A stretch of DNA of 64,000 bases from Desulforamulus reducens MI-1 (GTDB taxonomy: Bacteria > Bacillota > Desulfotomaculia > Desulfotomaculales > Desulfotomaculaceae). The stretch is from the NCBI RefSeq assembly GCF_000016165.1, contig NC_009253.1, forward strand, positions 434,001 to 498,000. Reading direction: 5' to 3'. Made by a program: the position numbers and the translations under genes. This document shows, piece after piece, positions 7,370-46,863 of the stretch. A model generated the notes under the pieces. That model did not search any database and was not told the DNA's origin. It saw only the letters and a list, made by a program, of their open reading frames with translations. Positions within the stretch are counted from its first letter, which is position 1; every line of letters begins with the position of its first letter.

Positions 7370-9218
<1,849 letters not shown>

Positions 9219-9798
9219 GGTCAAGAAAGAAAGGGCATACGGTGGATGCCTAGGCGCTAAGGGCCGAAGAAGGGCGCGGTAAGCTGCGAAAAGCCACGAG
9301 GAGCCGCAAGCAGGCATTGATTCGTGGGTACCCGAATGGGGCAACCCGGCGGAGCAAACCTCCGTCACCCTATGCTGAATCCATAGGCATAGAGGAGGGC
9401 ACCCGGGGAACTGAAACATCTAAGTACCCGGAGGAAGAGAAAGAAACATCGAACCCCCAAGTAGCGGCGAGCGAAAAGGGGCGAGCCTAAACCAGAATTC
9501 TTCGGAAATCTGGGGTTGCGGGACCCTCATCACGTGATAACTAGACCTAGTCGAAGACACCTGGAAAGGTGCTGCACAGAAGGTAAAACACCTGTAGACG
9601 AAAGGTTGAACATTACAGAGGAAATCCCAAGTACCGCGGGACACGAGAAACCCCGTGGGAATCAGGGGGGACCACCCCCCAAGGCTAAATACCCATAGCG
9701 ACCGATAGTGAACCAGTACCGTGAGGGAAAGGTGAAAAGCACCCCGGGAGGGGAGTGAAAAAGAACCTGAAACCGTATGCCTACAAACTGTCGGAGCA

Positions 9799-9923
9799 CT
9801 ATTCGAGGTTCGATATTCGAGATTCGAAATTCGAATGCATGTCATATCTTACGGGTCAAGTAAAAAAGACCCTAAAGGAATGCGTGTATCGAACCACGAA
9901 CTTCGAACATCGAACTTCGAAGT
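9799..9923 (+). repeat. Heptad-armed insert in 23S helix 25
   Basis: About 125 nt between CTGTCGGAGCA and TGTGACGGCGTAC, the helix-25 loop where intervening sequences also occur in Salmonella. The left arm is repeated TTCGANN; the right arm is its complement. The core GGGTC-N-GACCC, AAAGGAATGC and ATCGAACCACGAA matches the 16S insert. Removal by RNase III is the known fate of such inserts, inferred here. Confidence 0.9.
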
Positions 9924-10342
9924 GTGACGGCGTACTTTTTGTAGAACGGACCGGCGAGTTACATCTAACGTGCAGGTTAAGGCAGGAAAGCCGGAGCCAA
10001 AGCGAAAGCGAGTCTTAAAAGGGCGAGAGTGTACGTTGGAGTAGACCCGAAACCTGGTGATCTACCCATGTCCAGAGTGAAGCTTTAGTAAAATAAAGTG
10101 GAGGCTCGAACCGACCTTCGTTGAAAAGGAGGCGGATGAGGTGTGGGTAGGGGTGAAATGCCAATCGAACCAGGAGATAGCTGGTTCTCCCCGAAATAGC
10201 TTTAGGGCTAGCCTCGGTGGATGAATAACGGAGGTAGAGCACTGAATGGGCTAGGGGCCTTCACGGGTTACCGAACCCAATCAAACTCCGAATGCCGTTA
10301 TTTTAGAAACCGGGAGTCAGACTGCGGGTGCTAAGATTCGTA

Positions 10343-10381
<39 letters not shown>

Positions 10382-10538
10382 AAAGATATACTAAGTGGAA
10401 AAGGATGTGGGGTTGCTAAGACAACCAGGATGTTGGCTTAGAAGCAGCCACCATTTAAAGAGTGCGTAATAGCTCACTGGTCAAGTGACCCTGCGCCGAA
10501 AATGTAACGGGGCTAAGTATATCACCGAAGCTTTGGAT

Positions 10539-10974
10539 TCTCGAGGTTCGATATTCGAGATTCGATGTTCGAAAGGAAAACTCACATGATAAAAGATTAT
10601 CATGATCTTGAAGTGTACAAGAGGGGATATAAACTGGCTCTTCAAATACACAAAACAACAAAGGGTTTTCCGCAGCATGAGTTGTATGAGATAGGGAGCC
10701 AAATAAGACGTGCGACCGTATCAATACCGCTTAATATAGCCGAAGGATACGGTAGAAAGAACTATGTAGATGATTTTAAGAGGTTCTTAATAAATGCACT
10801 TGGATCCTGTAATGAGGTTGCAGTTTTACTAGATATGATCAAAGACCTTGGATATATATCAGATCAGTATGAAGGTTTTAAAGAGGAATACGATTATCTA
10901 GGAAGGCAACTAAACAAACTGATACAAACTTGGAAATAATCGAATTTCGAAATTCGAATATCGAACTTCGAGAA
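10539..10974 (+). repeat. Heptad-armed insert in 23S helix 45 carrying an ORF
   Basis: About 436 nt inserted in the helix-45 loop, a second classical intervening-sequence site. The arms are the same TTCGANN tandem repeats and their complement as in the other inserts, but the core is replaced by a protein gene (10586-10939). The arms would form a long, nearly perfect stem and likely an RNase III substrate. Confidence 0.92.
10586..10939 (+). CDS. 23S rRNA intervening-sequence protein (four-helix bundle, S23 family)
   Basis: Protein of 117 residues encoded entirely inside the 23S gene. It opens MIKDYHDLEVYKRGYKLA and holds the family hallmarks SQIRRATVSIPLNIAEGYGR and FLINALGSCNEV, as in four-helix-bundle proteins of rRNA intervening sequences. 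The ATG at 10586 has GAAAGGAAAA just upstream; the in-frame ATG at 10565 lies in the repeat arm and is less likely. The family function is unknown; an RNA- or ribosome-binding role is often guessed. It would have to be translated from rRNA precursor or from the excised fragment. Confidence 0.9.
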   Translation: MIKDYHDLEVYKRGYKLALQIHKTTKGFPQHELYEIGSQIRRATVSIPLNIAEGYGRKNYVDDFKRFLINALGSCNEVAVLLDMIKDLGYISDQYEGFKEEYDYLGRQLNKLIQTWK

Positions 10975-11435
10975 TGGTAGGGGAGCGTTCTTACCACATT
11001 GAAGCAGTACCGAAAGGAGCTGTGGAGAGGTAAGAAGTGAGAATGCCGGTATGAGTAAGCGAAAAGGCAGGTGAGAATCCTGCCCGCCGAAAACCTAAGG
11101 ATTTCTGGGGAAGGTTCGTCCGCCCAGAGTAAGTCGGGACCTAAGCCGAGGCCGCAAGGCGTAGGCGATGGACAATCGGTTGAAAATCCGATACCACCAA
11201 AAACCGTATGAGGATGGAGTGACGCAGGAGGGTAAGTTAAGCCAGCGGTTGGAAAAGCTGGTCCAAGCCCGTAGGGTGTAAGATAGGCAAATCCGTCTTA
11301 CATAAAACCTGAGAGGTGACGGGGAGCGAAAACAAGTAGCGAAGTAACTGATCCCAAACTGCCAAGAAAAGCTTCTAACGAGGTAAGTTGGTGCCCGTAC
11401 CGCAAACCGACACAGGTAGGTGGGGTGAGAATCCT

Positions 11436-11467
<32 letters not shown>

Positions 11468-11690
11468 CGGCAAAATGACCCCGTAACTTCGGGAGAAGGG
11501 GTGCCTCGGTATCGTGAAAATTGTACGATTGGAGCGAGAAAAGGCCGCAGAGAAAAGGTCCAAGCGACTGTTTACCAAAAACACAGGTCCCTGCTAAAGC
11601 GAAAGCTGACGTATAGGGGCTGACGCCTGCCCGGTGCTGGAAGGTTAAGGGGAAATGTTAAGGAAACTGAAGCATAGAACCGAAGCCCCA

Positions 11691-11775
<85 letters not shown>

Positions 11776-12026
11776 TTTGGACACTGTCTCAACGAGGGGC
11801 TCGGTGAAATTGTAATGACGGTGAAGATGCCGTCTACCTGCGACAGGACAGAAAGACCCCGTGGAGCTTTACTGTAGCTTGACATTGGGTTTTGGTATTT
11901 GATGTACAGGATAGGTGGGAGACTTAGAAGCTTGCACGCCAGTGTAGGTGGAGTCAGCGTTGGGATACCACCCTTTAGATATTGAAATTCTAACTAAATT
12001 CCATGAAGCTGGAATGAGGACAGTGT

Positions 12027-12059
<33 letters not shown>

Positions 12060-12216
12060 CAAAAGGTAACGGAGGCGCCCAAAGGTTCCCTCAGTGCGGA
12101 AGGAAATCGCACGTTAGAGTGTAAAGGCAAAAGGGAGCTTGACAGCGAGACCAACAAGTCGAGCTGGTACGAAAGTAGGGCTTAGTGATCCGGCGGTTCT
12201 GAGTGGAAGGGCCGTC

Positions 12217-12269
<53 letters not shown>

Positions 12270-12270
12270 C

Positions 12271-12366
<96 letters not shown>

Positions 12367-12371
12367 TACGT

Positions 12372-12414
<43 letters not shown>

Positions 12415-12441
12415 TCGCAGGCGCAGGAAACTTGAGAAGAG

Positions 12442-12473
<32 letters not shown>

Positions 12474-12589
12474 GACCGCTGGTGTACCAGCTATCGTGCC
12501 AACGGTAGTGCTGGGTAACTAAGTCCGGAAGGGATAAGTGCTGAAAGCATCTAAGCACGAAGCCTCCTTCAAGATGAGGTTTCCCACCT

Positions 12590-12713
12590 TCTCGAAGTTC
12601 GAGTTTCGACATTCGATGTTCGAATTTGGGTAAGAATTTTGGGTTGTTAAAAATAAAGACCCAAAAGAAATACTTAGATCGAACTTCGAACCACGAATTT
12701 CGAACTTCGAGAA
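12590..12713 (+). repeat. Heptad-armed insert in 23S helix 98
   Basis: About 124 nt between GGTTTCCCACCTT and GGTAAGATCCCATGAAG, near the 3' end of 23S (helix 98 region). Tandem TTCGANN left arm, complementary right arm, and a core with GACCCAAAAGAAATAC and ATCGAAC that matches the 16S and helix-25 inserts. Confidence 0.88.
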
Positions 12714-12819
12714 GGGTAAGATCCCATGAAGACTACATGGTAGATAGGCCGGGAGTGTAAGAGCAGCAATGTTTTCAGCTGACCGGTACTAATAGATCGA
12801 GTTCTTGACCAAAAACAAG

Positions 12820-12968
12820 CCTTAGGCCATGTGCCATGAGCCGTGAGCTAAGGTTAAGAATATATGACGCAATACTAAATAGCTGTTCAGTTTTGAGAGA
12901 ACATAAATTGTTTGCTCAAAGGAAAAGCCAAAAAGCTCATGGCCCAAGGCCCACAGCCCATGGCTGAC
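12820..12968 (+). repeat. 23S-5S spacer with a second heptad repeat pair
   Basis: The spacer holds a left block (12820-12853) of 7-nt units of the type GCCATGA and a right block (12934-12968) of units such as CCCAAGG and CCCATGG. The blocks are largely complementary if G-U pairs are allowed and would close a loop that contains a box A-like segment. The architecture resembles the TTCGANN inserts, with a different unit. Confidence 0.6.
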
Positions 12969-12996
12969 CTAAAAGTAATACCCAATAGCATAAAGT

Positions 12997-13113
12997 TTCT
13001 GGTGGCGATACCGGAGGGGGTACACCTGTTCCCATCCCGAACACAGCAGTTAAGCCCTCCAGGGCCGATGGTACTTGGAGCTCACGCTCCTGGGAGAGTA
13101 GGTCGTCGCCAGA
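12997..13113 (+). rRNA. rrf: 5S ribosomal RNA
   Basis: About 117 nt with the typical opening TCTGGTGGCGAT, the CCCATCCCGAACAC block, GTTAAGCCC and the closing GTCGCCAGA that pairs with the 5' end. Third gene of the rRNA operon. Confidence 0.95.
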
Positions 13114-13123
13114 GTAATTTTTT

Positions 13124-38971: not shown

Positions 38972-40000
38972 TTAAATTTTTAGGCCCACCGGGCAGATGG
39001 TATTGCATTTTTCACAGTCTAAGCAGTAAGTACATTCTTCTTGATAGGGGCTCGATTCGCCACTTAAAAACTTTGACAATATGGCTTTTCGCTTACCTGA
39101 ATAGTGATAACCAAATTTTAGCCCTTTTTTTAAATAGGCAGGACAGTCGACCAGACAACCACCACAATGCAGACATTTTAGAGCGTCAAATTCTCCCTTT
39201 TTCGATGCTGCCATACGTCCGTTATCTACTAAGATCACATAGACTTCTTTAGGGCCATGCATACCTTGTACCATACGGAATTCGATGTCGGCGGTTCTGC
39301 TGGGACCTGAAATAAAGGAAATATAATTAAGTAAGTCCTTACCTAAACCATATATACTTGAAGTCCGACATACAGTCAGTGCATCTTCCAAAGTGGGGAC
39401 GATTTTCTCAACACCCGCAATAACGATATGATTATAGGGTAGGTTGGAGGTTAGACGGACATTGCCTTCGGACTCCAACAGAGCAATGGTGCCGGTCTCA
39501 GCAATGATAGCGTCTGCGCCCGTGATGCCAAAATCAGTTTGGGAAGATTCTTCCCGTATATCATTCTTTAGTTGCAAAAGGTGCTCTTTGTCCATAACCG
39601 ATGTATTAATGGAGGCCATTCTGGGATGTACATCGATAGACAAAGGGGCTACCCTTTCTCCTAAATCTGTTTGAACAAGCTTCACATTTTTTTCTTGCAG
39701 AAACTGGTGTAAATTAATCTCTGTAAAAATTGGGTCTTTACTTATGAGTGCTTTTTGGTTGGTAGATAAAATTTTAAGAACCTGTTCCCGGGCTTCCGAT
39801 GGATCTTTAGCCAGGAAAACTTGACATCCCTTAACCTTAAGCATTGTAGTGGCACGACCAACCATTTTGTTAAGCTCTCTAGCCGTTGAAGATTTTAAAT
39901 TTTGAACTTTCTGTGCTAGGGTGGAATAGTCGGCGAGCAAGGTTTCCCGCTGTGCTTGAATTTGCCCTAATATTTTTTCTGCTTTCGCCGTGGTATTCAT
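38972..40000 (-). CDS. LUD domain / 4Fe-4S protein (LutB-like, short)
   Basis: 342 residues. An LUD domain (ITGADAIIAETGTIALLESEGNVR, VIAGVEKIVPTLEDAL) is followed by two cysteine clusters, CLHCGGCLVDCPAYL and CTYCLDCEKCNTICPVG, for two 4Fe-4S centres. LUD proteins are parts of L-lactate oxidising complexes (LutABC/LldEFG). It overlaps the upstream gene by four bases (ATGA). It lacks the CCG domains, which the larger neighbour supplies. Confidence 0.9.
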   Translation of the reverse strand: MNTTAKAEKILGQIQAQRETLLADYSTLAQKVQNLKSSTARELNKMVGRATTMLKVKGCQVFLAKDPSEAREQVLKILSTNQKALISKDPIFTEINLHQFLQEKNVKLVQTDLGERVAPLSIDVHPRMASINTSVMDKEHLLQLKNDIREESSQTDFGITGADAIIAETGTIALLESEGNVRLTSNLPYNHIVIAGVEKIVPTLEDALTVCRTSSIYGLGKDLLNYISFISGPSRTADIEFRMVQGMHGPKEVYVILVDNGRMAASKKGEFDALKCLHCGGCLVDCPAYLKKGLKFGYHYSGKRKAILSKFLSGESSPYQEECTYCLDCEKCNTICPVGLKI

Positions 40001-42165
40001 TCCTTATTCCTCCTGCCATATGTTTGACTAAGTAGTTGTATTGTATGAAAAACCTGCTGCTTCATATTCTTTTGGGTTATGCCATCCCGAAAATGCAACA
40101 TGCACCCGGGACAACTGGTGGCCAAAATTGTAGCCCCAGTATTTTCAATTGATGTTAATTTTCCTTCATTAATTCGCCTGGATAGGTCATAGTAGTCGAT
40201 GCTAAAGGACCCCCCAAAGCCGCAGCAGGCGTCTGCATCCACCATTTCTTCAAACTTTGCCCCGGGTAGGGTTTGAATCAGTTGTCTTGGTTGTTGTGTG
40301 ATGCCCAGACTCCGAACTAGGTGACAGGGGTCGTGGTAGGTTATTTTCTCAGGTATAGACCCCGGTATTGTTACTAATTCAATATCTTCTATCAAAAATT
40401 GGTTAATGTCTTTGACCTTTTGAGCCAGCTTAATAACTTTTTGTAAGAGTTTGGGGTCATCCTTGGCAAATAATTTGGGGTATTCTTCTTTAAAGGCCAC
40501 AGCACAACTGGGGCAAACAAAGACCAGTGCATCTGTGTCAAATTGGCTATAAATTTCTATGTTCCTTAAAGCCATTTGACGTGAGTAGTTTTTGTCACCA
40601 CTTACAATACCCGGGATACCGCAGCAGAGGTCTTCCTTGGCCAGTTTTACAGCAACCTTATTTTCTCCCAGGACATGTAAAAGGGCTTCCCCCACAGAGG
40701 GTTCTGTATAGTTCACCACACAGCCCGGGAAAAAGGCCACGGTTTTTACAGGGTTTTCAATGGGTTTTGGCTTAGCATTTTCCAAAAAGGACTTTTTCTG
40801 CACCGCAGGAAGTAAGCGTTCACCGGGTAACCCTAAGGATGGTAAAGAAAATCTTGTCTTTACACCTATTTTACTTTTCTTTAATAACGTTCCACCGAAC
40901 GTGGAAGCCACTTTTGTTAATCTTGGTAAGCCCTTGGGCTTGCTAAGTAAAGCTAACATCCTTTCTTTTTTCCAACCCAGTCCCTCCTGCTGCACCTGTT
41001 CTTGACGTAAATTTTTAAGCATTTCCGGTGTATTCATTTGGACCGGGCAGGAGTTTTTACACTTTTGGCAGCCAATGCAGAGTGATAAGCCGCTTTCCAC
41101 GGTCTTTTGAAGATCTCCATGAAAGGCAGTAAATACCAAGCCCCGACCGCCTAAATATTTGTAACCATATTTCTCACCGATCTCAGCATAAATTGGGCAG
41201 AAATTTAAGCAGCTTCCGCAATTGATGCAATAGAGGGACTCAGCAAAACCTTTATCGATGGCCTCTTGTCGACCATGTTTTAGAAATAAGATGTGAACTT
41301 CTTGGGGGCCTTGGCCATGTATTAATTCATCTAATTCAGGATCACAGCAGGTACTGGTACCGGATATAACAGAAACATAGGTTCCGATATCCTGTCCCAC
41401 GCCATAAACTGCAGCAGAACGGACAACCTTTAAAGCATCTTCCAAGGTAGGTACTATTTTTTCTACTCCGGCAATTACGATATGGATTTTTGGCATCATG
41501 GTTACTGCGCGGATATTTCCCTCATTTTCTGTTACAAAAACACTTCCTGTATCGGCTGCTATGGCATTGGCTCCGGAAATGCCAACGTCTGCGTTAATCA
41601 AATAGTCCCGTAATCCCTTACGGGCTGCTACCACCAGGGCCTCATGACTGCATTCCAATTGTGTTCCCATTTCCTTTGAGAACACCTCTGTAACCTTTTC
41701 AATGGGAATATGTATGGCCGGTGCCAGGGAATGACTTGCTTCACTATGGGCTAGCTGATTAATTCGGTCACCAAGATCTGTTTCAATAACTTGAATGTCC
41801 CGTTCTTCTAGGACATGGGTTAAGTTTATTTCTTTTCCGGCATTGGTCTTTGATTTTACCACAACCCCTTGAGGGATGAGGCTTAATAAATGGGCTTGGG
41901 CTTGTTCGGTGGTTTCAGCTACGTAGACATGGCAACCCTTTCTTTCCAGGGAGAGCGTTGCCTTAGAAATCATTTCCTCAAGGTTATCAATACAATGCTG
42001 TTTAATTTGGCGTAGTTCATTGGAAAGATAGGGATAGTTCTTTACCATTTTCTTCATGGCTGGTCTTATGGCGTCAAAGGCTCTGAAACGACCTTTACGG
42101 GAATCGGTATTTTGAAGTCCTAACGCTACTTTATTCTTTTGAATTTTGTCGCTCCGACTTCCCAT
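39997..42165 (-). CDS. Fused LUD / 4Fe-4S / CCG-domain oxidoreductase (LutB-LutA fusion)
   Basis: 722 residues joining what are two proteins in LutABC: an N-terminal LUD domain (GISGANAIAADTGSVFVTENEGN), two 4Fe-4S clusters (CINCGSCLNFCP, CIGCQKCKNSCP), then two CCG domains (DLCCGIPGIVSGD, CPSCAVAF, HDPCHLVRS, DACCGFGGSF, SCPGCMLHF). Such proteins oxidise L-lactate or related 2-hydroxy acids with electrons passed to quinone or Fe-S partners. ATG at 42165 is ten bases from GGAGGTG; the ATG at 42174 is only one base away. Preceded by a T-box leader. Confidence 0.9.
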   Translation of the reverse strand: MGSRSDKIQKNKVALGLQNTDSRKGRFRAFDAIRPAMKKMVKNYPYLSNELRQIKQHCIDNLEEMISKATLSLERKGCHVYVAETTEQAQAHLLSLIPQGVVVKSKTNAGKEINLTHVLEERDIQVIETDLGDRINQLAHSEASHSLAPAIHIPIEKVTEVFSKEMGTQLECSHEALVVAARKGLRDYLINADVGISGANAIAADTGSVFVTENEGNIRAVTMMPKIHIVIAGVEKIVPTLEDALKVVRSAAVYGVGQDIGTYVSVISGTSTCCDPELDELIHGQGPQEVHILFLKHGRQEAIDKGFAESLYCINCGSCLNFCPIYAEIGEKYGYKYLGGRGLVFTAFHGDLQKTVESGLSLCIGCQKCKNSCPVQMNTPEMLKNLRQEQVQQEGLGWKKERMLALLSKPKGLPRLTKVASTFGGTLLKKSKIGVKTRFSLPSLGLPGERLLPAVQKKSFLENAKPKPIENPVKTVAFFPGCVVNYTEPSVGEALLHVLGENKVAVKLAKEDLCCGIPGIVSGDKNYSRQMALRNIEIYSQFDTDALVFVCPSCAVAFKEEYPKLFAKDDPKLLQKVIKLAQKVKDINQFLIEDIELVTIPGSIPEKITYHDPCHLVRSLGITQQPRQLIQTLPGAKFEEMVDADACCGFGGSFSIDYYDLSRRINEGKLTSIENTGATILATSCPGCMLHFRDGITQKNMKQQVFHTIQLLSQTYGRRNKE

Positions 42166-42299
42166 AGCATGCATGCACCTCCAAATAAATTAATTTTAAA
42201 ATGTCAAAAAAGTAAACAAAATTAGCAAAGACTATTTTCAAGAATATTCTGCTTTAAAATGGCGTATAGGCTTTGATTTTACACCTTCAGTGTAGGAGG

Positions 42300-42545
42300 A
42301 TAAAAATATAAAAACCCCTCGTCCCGTAAGGGACGAGAGGCTTTCCCGCGTTACCACCCTAGTTGATAAGTTAGTAAACTTACCCTCTTTATAGCTGTAA
42401 CGGGCATACCCGGTTCGAAGTACTTACTATTTCCATCGAACATCTCCAGGGCGAGATTCAGTAATTTAGCCCACCGTCTTGCACCTTCCGACGGCTCTCT
42501 GCAGAGTTACATTACTTACTATTCCCCATCAGCGATTTGACCATA
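42300..42545 (-). ncRNA. T-box leader, apparent leucine (CUC) specifier
   Basis: Minus strand. Stem I opens GATGGGGAATAGTAAGTAA with CAGAGAGCCGTCGG and GGTGCAAGACGG at the apex. The T-box sequence AGGGTGGTAACGCGGG and a strong terminator (CCTCTCGTCCC / GGGACGAGGGG plus T run) follow. Aligned with the tyrS-type stem I, the specifier falls in CTGAATCTCGCCC and reads CUC (Leu); the UGGU bulge fits a tRNA with discriminator A, as tRNA-Leu has. It lies about 140 bases upstream of the LUD operon with no gene between. Confidence 0.88.
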
Positions 42546-42560
42546 AATTATACATTTGAA

Positions 42561-42589
42561 ATTATATCCAATGGTTAGAATTTTGTCAA
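42561..42589 (-). promoter_or_regulatory. Consensus promoter of the T-box transcript
   Basis: Minus strand TTGACA-N17-TATAAT, a perfect sigma-A consensus, placing the start near 42554 just before the T-box leader. Confidence 0.88.
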
Positions 42590-45029: not shown

Positions 45030-46863
45030 CTTGGATTCGGAAAGTAACTTTTAGAAATCCTCTAACGTCAAGGCTTCAAAGTCATTTTTACGTGTAAAAA
45101 TTTTAGCAAAAAAAAGGGTACACCACTCCTTAGCTGGAAATGTTTTAGTGACCAAACCAAATCATTCCAAAGGATGGTGACCCTCTAAAATGATGGTATC
45201 ACAACTTATTACCACAAATCAACTTGAAACTATGTCCCGTCAACAACGACGTAACTTGGAACGCAAATACCAAAAGAAATTAAATTCCCTACAACACCAG
45301 ACTAGCAAAAGCGATCTTCCGCTTAGGTTTGACAATTCGTCTGTAACCGCTTATGGAAGTTTTGGTATACTAGAGGCTTTTAAGAAGGCTGTTGATTTAC
45401 CCGGTATGCTTAAACGGGTCTCTCTTAAGCGGCATCATAACTGTAAATACTCTGATACAGAGTTGTTGGATACGATCATTGATGCCCTCTCATTGGGATT
45501 ATTGCGGTTTTCTCATATGAATGCTCTACAAACTGATCCTGGGTACCAGAAAATTAAGGAAGTAACACAAGTGCCTGACGAGAGCACCTTGCGAAACTTT
45601 GTATCTCTTATATGTGAGCAGGAGGCATTAGACCAATTGTCTCTGGTGAATCAGGAACTGTTATCCTTAAAGGCCAAATGCGACCAATCCCGCGAAGTCT
45701 GGCTGGATATTGACGACAGTGTCCTCACTGTTTTCGGTAAACAGGAGGGATCAAAAGTCGGTTACAATCCCCGGTATCACGGGCGACCTTCCTACAAAGT
45801 AAAAGTAGCGTTTATCTCCGGAACTTGCGAACTGGTCAATGCTGGCTTATATAGTGGGAATGTCGCCAGTAACGGCCAATTTATGGAGTTTCTTAAAGAG
45901 ACACTAGAGATCTTAGCCAACCAGAATATCCTCGTAAAAGGCATACGCATGGATAAAGGTTTTTTTGATGAAGATAACTTCGCCTACCTGGAAGAACAGG
46001 GCATTGAGTATATTTGTAAGGCTAAGCTCACCAGTAATATGAAAAAAGTCATTAAATACCTTGATGATCAGGAACGATGGCAGCCTTTGAGCAACCACTA
46101 CGCTGCAGCAGAAATTACTCTTCCATTGCCTAAATGGTCCAAAGCCCGCAGGTTTGTATTTATCCGTGAAACTCAAGAACCAAAGGTATCTGGTGAGCAA
46201 CTTAACTTTGACCTAAAGACATTTGATTACCAAGTGATAATTACTTCTAGCGACGAGTACAACCCAGAGGAGGTATGGCACCAATACAATAAGCGTTGCA
46301 ATATTGAAAACAAAATTGATGAACTCAAGGTTGGTCTAGGCTTTGAAAAAATGAGTCAGGCAGAGTTGGATCGAAATATAGCCTTTATGTGGCTCAAAGT
46401 ATTATCGTATAACATTCTCAACTGGTTTCGCTTGGTCTTATTGGATGGCAAAGACAGTCGTGCTGAAGTGCCAACTATCCGCCGCAAAATACTGAATGTA
46501 CCTGGGAACATTGTAGGCAACGACCGTTACCGCCATATAAAGTTAGCCCCTAATCCCTGGCTACAAAAGGTTTTGAAAAATGCCAAGGAAAAACTACAAG
46601 AATTTCTCTGCACACAGGCATGGGTTGCAGTAAGTTCCGGTTAAACAAACATCGGACGACCTAAATATCTGGTGTCACTGATCCCCCAAAAGGGGTCTTA
46701 TTAACTGTACCCTAAAACCTAGCCTTTATTGGGGTACTTAGGAGTAATACCATATTCCAGACGCCAAGAATTTCAGAGACCATAAAAACAGTGGTTTAAT
46801 GCCCTAAAATTTGGTTATTTGAGGGATTAAGTCAAGCTCGGGAAGCTACTTTCCGATTTCAAG
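45030..46863 (+). mobile_element. IS1380-family insertion sequence, copy 1
   Basis: 1,834 bp, bounded by imperfect inverted repeats that share TCGGAAAGTA near both ends (left CTTGGATTCGG, right end reading CTTGAAATCGG on the other strand). A 5-bp target duplication TTAAT flanks it (45025-45029 and 46864-46868). One transposase gene. Apparently identical to the element at 57375-59208. It sits between a ribosome binding site and the start codon of an ABC transporter gene. Confidence 0.93.
45190..46644 (+). CDS. IS1380-family transposase (copy 1)
   Basis: 484 residues. The DDE-type core includes LDIDDSVLTVFGKQEG and NPRYHGRPSYKVKVAF, characteristic of IS1380, then IRMDKGFFDEDN with the second aspartate and RCNIENKIDELKVGLGF with the catalytic glutamate. 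Intact and identical to copy 2, so likely active recently. Confidence 0.94.
   Translation: MMVSQLITTNQLETMSRQQRRNLERKYQKKLNSLQHQTSKSDLPLRFDNSSVTAYGSFGILEAFKKAVDLPGMLKRVSLKRHHNCKYSDTELLDTIIDALSLGLLRFSHMNALQTDPGYQKIKEVTQVPDESTLRNFVSLICEQEALDQLSLVNQELLSLKAKCDQSREVWLDIDDSVLTVFGKQEGSKVGYNPRYHGRPSYKVKVAFISGTCELVNAGLYSGNVASNGQFMEFLKETLEILANQNILVKGIRMDKGFFDEDNFAYLEEQGIEYICKAKLTSNMKKVIKYLDDQERWQPLSNHYAAAEITLPLPKWSKARRFVFIRETQEPKVSGEQLNFDLKTFDYQVIITSSDEYNPEEVWHQYNKRCNIENKIDELKVGLGFEKMSQAELDRNIAFMWLKVLSYNILNWFRLVLLDGKDSRAEVPTIRRKILNVPGNIVGNDRYRHIKLAPNPWLQKVLKNAKEKLQEFLCTQAWVAVSSG

Follow-up and report, generated by a model that had tools for sequence, protein, structure and literature searches.

The LUD operon of Desulforamulus (formerly Desulfotomaculum) reducens MI-1, which encodes two iron-sulfur oxidoreductases akin to those of lactate systems and an MFS carrier, stands behind a complete leucine T-box, and a lactate-type Fe-S oxidase seems thereby to have been re-wired toward leucine precursor supply. 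We propose that a duplicated leucine T-box came to control a laterally acquired operon whose products would import 2-hydroxyisocaproate and oxidise it toward leucine, an explanation that, taken whole, we hold at a probability of about 0.4. Judged by sequence, its regulatory claim is solid and its evolutionary claim strong; what happens in the cell is what we infer: the regulation itself, the import, the reaction and its substrate. T-boxes are found mostly on synthetase, biosynthesis and transporter genes, and one on a redox operon hints, in a way open to test, at the product of its enzymes.

The leader is located on the minus strand at 42541-42326 of the window, the whole 64,000-nucleotide stretch of DNA that was analysed. 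It matches Rfam family RF00230 with 151.2 bits (cut-off 93, E 4.9e-34) over the full length of the model (positions 1-219 of 219), contains stem I, antiterminator and terminator, and scores highest among the 19 T-boxes found in the 3,608,104-base genome. A sigma-70-type promoter, TTGACA-17-TATAAT (42589-42561, minus strand), agrees with the consensus at 12/12 bases and is the best of the region. The Rfam alignment places the specifier codon CUC (Leu) at 42455-42453 (minus strand), in the context GAAU-CUC-G-CCC within the specifier loop, and the codon is an invariant column across 11 aligned leucine T-boxes, including those of leuS and ilv-leu; together with the likeness to the leucine T-boxes of the genus, this defines the leader as leucine type. 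The same alignment locates the T-box motif AGGGUGGUAAC, including UGGU, at 42360-42350 (minus strand). The UGGU of an antiterminator pairs with the 3′ end ACCA of the tRNA, and here we take it to imply discriminator base A and hence Leu, not Ser. An intrinsic terminator with a 16-pair stem, a 4-nt loop and TTTTT (42345-42310, minus strand) forms the alternative to the antiterminator. Between the T-box and the first gene neither a second terminator nor a comparable promoter was found. The initial annotation, which had described a full T-box with a consensus promoter, a Leu specifier to be confirmed by covariance model and LUD genes directly behind, is borne out on all these points as far as the sequence allows, and we have little doubt that the operon was placed under leucine control. 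No tRNA-Leu(GAG) gene was located, the window and the scanned loci being devoid of any tRNA.

Many other T-boxes of the genome precede genes where such elements are expected, for instance leuS and ilvD, and a full ilv-leu operon elsewhere is under tandem Ile and Leu T-boxes; therefore, a leucine regulon exists that the LUD operon could join. A degenerate leucine T-box lacking the antiterminator (L018, genome 2012968-2013121; L112 8181-8558) precedes a 126-aa leuA-like fragment, with a cobalamin riboswitch about 500 nt downstream.

The operon comprises three genes of the minus strand, probably Dred_0433 to Dred_0431 as judged from gene order, domain content and the orthologue remarks of the published study. 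LUD1 (42174-39997, 725 aa) has an N-terminal LUD domain (PF02589) followed by a 4Fe-4S pair (Fer4_8) and two CCG domains, according to Pfam; LUD2 (40000-38972, 342 aa), LutB-like, carries the LUD and Fer4_8 domains. The two genes overlap by 4 nt, and the gene of the MFS carrier (PF07690; 38949-37627) begins 22 nt further on. The initial annotation had given 39997-42589, an interval that covers the T-box and LUD1; the operon extends to 37627. Since a terminator with a 12-pair stem and a T-run (37621-37593, minus strand) comes before bioB, this gene falls outside the operon. The spacing to GGAGG and the starts of relatives indicate that the true start of LUD1 may be the second ATG (42165).

Both LUD domains score above the gathering threshold (163 and 165 bits against 22.6). 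LUD1 resembles the quinone-linked L-lactate dehydrogenase LdhH (NF045670) in joining LUD, 4Fe-4S and CCG domains in one chain of about 720 aa, but it reaches 598.1 bits against the curated cut-off of 800, and its partner is a second LUD-4Fe-4S protein rather than LldG/LutC. With LutABC/LldEFG the operon has LUD, Fe-S and CCG domains in common, and a GntR-type regulator is likewise found beside its relatives in another family; those systems, however, consist of three genes under a substrate-responsive repressor, whereas here there is a pair of LUD genes behind a leucine T-box, with CCG fused into LUD1 and no LutC-type gene, and the LutB model gives 287.4 bits against 444.8. Because neither protein reaches the curated cut-offs set for lactate models, they were filed neither as LdhH nor as LutB. 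In the PDB, LUD1 matched only HdrB-like or reductase CCG chains. The nearest model to the carrier, TIGR00893 (galactonate-type), gives 254 bits against 395, which places the protein in the sugar-acid group but under every curated cut-off. A second LdhH/LutB-like locus, conserved in the genus, 34% identical and apparently Dred_0689-90, is present in the genome.

No LUD1 orthologue was found in the eight other Desulforamulus genomes compared, while orthologues with 66-71% identity occur in 19 genomes of another family (f21), probably Desulfosporosinus and a relative in view of a published remark on the closest orthologues (PMC4759654). Three of these 19 operons have the LUD1-LUD2-MFS cassette, with carriers 71-73% identical; in 15 the LIV-type ABC transporter LivKHMGF takes the place of the MFS gene, and the remaining one contains LUD1-LUD2 with neither transporter. 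True orthologues of the carrier came only from the search of this family, its homologues in the neighbourhoods of the phylum sample being only 32-36% identical. A PdhR/LldR-like GntR gene adjoins 16 of the 19 operons, and a TGGT-N3-ACCA palindrome is found about 35 nt upstream of the start codon in three of the four that lack Liv genes; the palindrome is absent upstream of LivK and from the operon of D. reducens. No T-box was detected near any of the 19. The LUD1 tree places D. reducens with the f21 group, at an open fork and not within the clade that bears Liv genes. Going beyond the initial annotation, these patterns make it highly probable that the operon was acquired laterally and that its regulation was exchanged, a leucine T-box replacing a GntR-type regulator. 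If so, one regulator gave way to another once the operon had been transferred, and donor-like and recipient leaders can both still be seen.

The site of insertion can be recognized. In three relatives of the genus (G006, G002, G008) the genes for DUF1624 and NDH are only 180-192 nt apart, and in D. reducens the same two genes enclose bioB, MFS, LUD2, LUD1, the T-box and a short gene for a cysteine-rich product that looks, by eye, DUF1540-like. The initial annotation had called for synteny as a check on a leucine gene lost from this spot; as the gap is empty in the three relatives, the deletion of such a gene from the ancestral site is ruled out. An IS-like element lies further upstream (45030-46863), with a DDE transposase gene (45190-46644) flanked by 21-nt inverted repeats (45030-45050 and 46843-46863).

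Each of the eight other Desulforamulus genomes has, as the DNA closest to the LUD leader (76-82% identical), a leucine T-box placed before an acyl-CoA ligase gene. These leuS-type leaders (RF00230) share with it the CUC specifier, UGGU, the terminator and 76-83% identity; they differ in what they control, ligase and leuS (leuS alone in D. reducens) instead of LUD genes. The seven genomes with a long enough contig have the order rsfS, T-box, ligase, leuS; D. reducens, which lacks a ligase orthologue, has only the T-box between rsfS and leuS. A segment past the terminator of the LUD leader (42256-42230, minus strand) resembles the ligase leaders: for four of the six leaders compared, only 0-4 of 1000 shuffles attained its local alignment score. 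The same shuffle test found no beyond-chance likeness between the post-terminator segment and the leader of the D. reducens leuS. Because that stretch is common to the LUD and ligase leaders and not to the leuS leader of the same genome, the LUD leader most plausibly arose long ago by copying of a ligase-type leader, which makes the T-box paralogous to the ligase-leuS leader, a relation that the initial annotation had not contained; the tree of leaders has support too weak for dating the copying event. Two other origins were discarded. A recent copy of the leuS leader of D. reducens itself is unsupported, the two being 81% alike, which is no closer than most relatives, and not sisters in the weakly resolved tree. 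Arrival of the T-box with the operon is unsupported as well: in the donor-like genomes the orthologous operons have no T-boxes, and the match to the leader is limited to about 60 nt of generic antiterminator. The 64-kb window contains no recognizable remnant of the genus ligase, although a former ligase copy behind the T-box, later replaced by the LUD genes, is conceivable.

A duplicated leader may also land before genes by accident. T-box and promoter could have been captured by chance, the enzymes oxidising some other 2-hydroxy acid under a leucine control of no adaptive value; the visible duplication, the occurrence of the arrangement in a single genome and the IS-type transposase gene (45190-46644) about 2.6 kb upstream of the promoter all agree with such an event. 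Yet the leader, though it has diverged by 17-24% from its relatives, has kept the specifier, the motifs of stem I, the antiterminator and the terminator, which suggests selection for leader function, and we regard chance capture as unlikely.

In the mechanism that we propose, uncharged tRNA-Leu(GAG) would pair with CUC and UGGU and stabilise the antiterminator, so that RNA polymerase would read into LUD1-LUD2-MFS. A 2-hydroxy acid would be taken up through the MFS carrier and oxidised by the LUD pair to the 2-oxo acid, electrons passing through the LUD Fe-S clusters to a membrane acceptor. With 2-hydroxyisocaproate the product would be 4-methyl-2-oxopentanoate, one transamination away from leucine. 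Family and context indicate that the LUD pair probably oxidises some 2-hydroxy acid, a reading that fits the enzyme class, the type of the GntR regulator, the LarA racemase gene beside one orthologue (G234) and the IOR genes (2-oxo-acid:ferredoxin oxidoreductase) that adjoin more distant LUD relatives. A branched-chain substrate fits the LIV-type transporter of 15 of the 19 orthologous operons, and 2-hydroxyisocaproate is the best single candidate, put forward tentatively. Thus, of the initial reading the Leu specifier, the predicted read-through and the absence of a lost leucine gene have held, and 2-hydroxyisocaproate and its import by the MFS carrier keep the rank of proposals. Somewhat more speculative is the wider idea of a LUD clade that oxidises branched-chain 2-hydroxy acids instead of lactate, in which a swap of GntR for a T-box would have given D. 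reducens a tRNA-sensed salvage of leucine from 2-hydroxyisocaproate. Several facts weigh against the explanation. LIV-type transporters are broad, with many substrates besides branched-chain compounds, the MFS carrier belongs to the sugar-acid group under all curated cut-offs, and the presence of the T-box on the LUD operon in only one genome gives selection no backing from conservation.

Lactate itself has to be weighed. The characterised relatives of this LUD clade act on lactate. The operon might accordingly oxidise lactate to pyruvate, and under leucine shortage the T-box would simply lift the level of pyruvate, from which leucine synthesis starts; LUD, CCG and Fe-S domains are combined as in the lactate systems, the neighbours of orthologues include PdhR/LldR-like GntR genes, and the LarA of G234 scores above the lactate-racemase cut-off. 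Nevertheless, pyruvate also feeds valine and isoleucine, for which a signal from leucine only would be odd, and many positions of the LUD domain differ between the clade and the genus-conserved paralogue, each fixed within its group; by sequence, such differences permit another substrate without demonstrating one. Moreover, other candidate lactate routes are present, since Dred_0367-9 have been proposed for lactate oxidation and Dred_0689-90, a LutC/LutB pair, are raised on sulfate with lactate (PMC4759654). We consider the lactate route rather improbable, and the operon suggests that lactate is not the substrate of every LUD protein.

The published proteome has led to a different suggestion. 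Peptides of Dred_0433 were seen only on Fe(III)-citrate, where Dred_0432 was raised, and a role in Fe(III) reduction was tentatively suggested, in a paper whose main text is silent on T-boxes, leucine and amino acids (PMC4759654). The LUD pair would then serve as a module that transfers electrons to reduce Fe(III), consistent with orthologues in other Gram-positive metal reducers (PMC4759654). However, a leucine T-box has no obvious link to iron, the orthologues are tied to uptake systems, a racemase and GntR regulators instead of outward electron transfer, and poor growth with limiting amino acids could account for the detection on Fe(III)-citrate, all of which makes this role very improbable. 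Leucine limitation in those cultures is a possible alternative cause of a signal previously read as iron reduction.

Enzymes for making or activating the organic-acid precursors of amino acids are also under T-box control elsewhere in the genome, where a Phe and another T-box operon contain phenylacetate-CoA ligase and IOR genes; the chemistry there is that of ligase and oxidoreductase, whereas the LUD operon would perform hydroxyacid oxidation. The first (L219) has a Phe-type T-box before a phenylacetate-CoA ligase gene with an ACT-domain gene; the second (L220, genome 3464500-3477500) comprises an Lrp-like regulator, an aminotransferase, a symporter, another phenylacetate-CoA ligase and iorAB, and its specifier looked like GCC, which is puzzling. 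In G384, a genome of another family, a LUD pair, 50% identical, is followed after about 1 kb by a different CUC T-box (L050 10010-10281); behind this T-box comes a gene for a fused isomerase/acyl-CoA ligase, with 54% identity to the genus ligase. The arrangement may be a further hint to the substrate, but as it emerged from about forty LUD loci inspected and polyketide genes occupy the same neighbourhood, the adjacency may be chance.

The comparison also draws notice to the unassigned acyl-CoA ligase that the other genomes of the genus place under leucine control, between the leucine T-box and leuS (L119, L121-L126). It might activate isovalerate for leucine synthesis, and D. reducens either lost it or never had one. 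Apart from the LUD operon, the window contains an rRNA operon (7371-13114) with insertions: the 16S gene, of 1619 nt, has an early hairpin enlarged by about 100 bases, and the 23S gene measures 3594 nt against a model of 2925 positions, with a repetitive insert rich in ttcgaa near 9802-9919.
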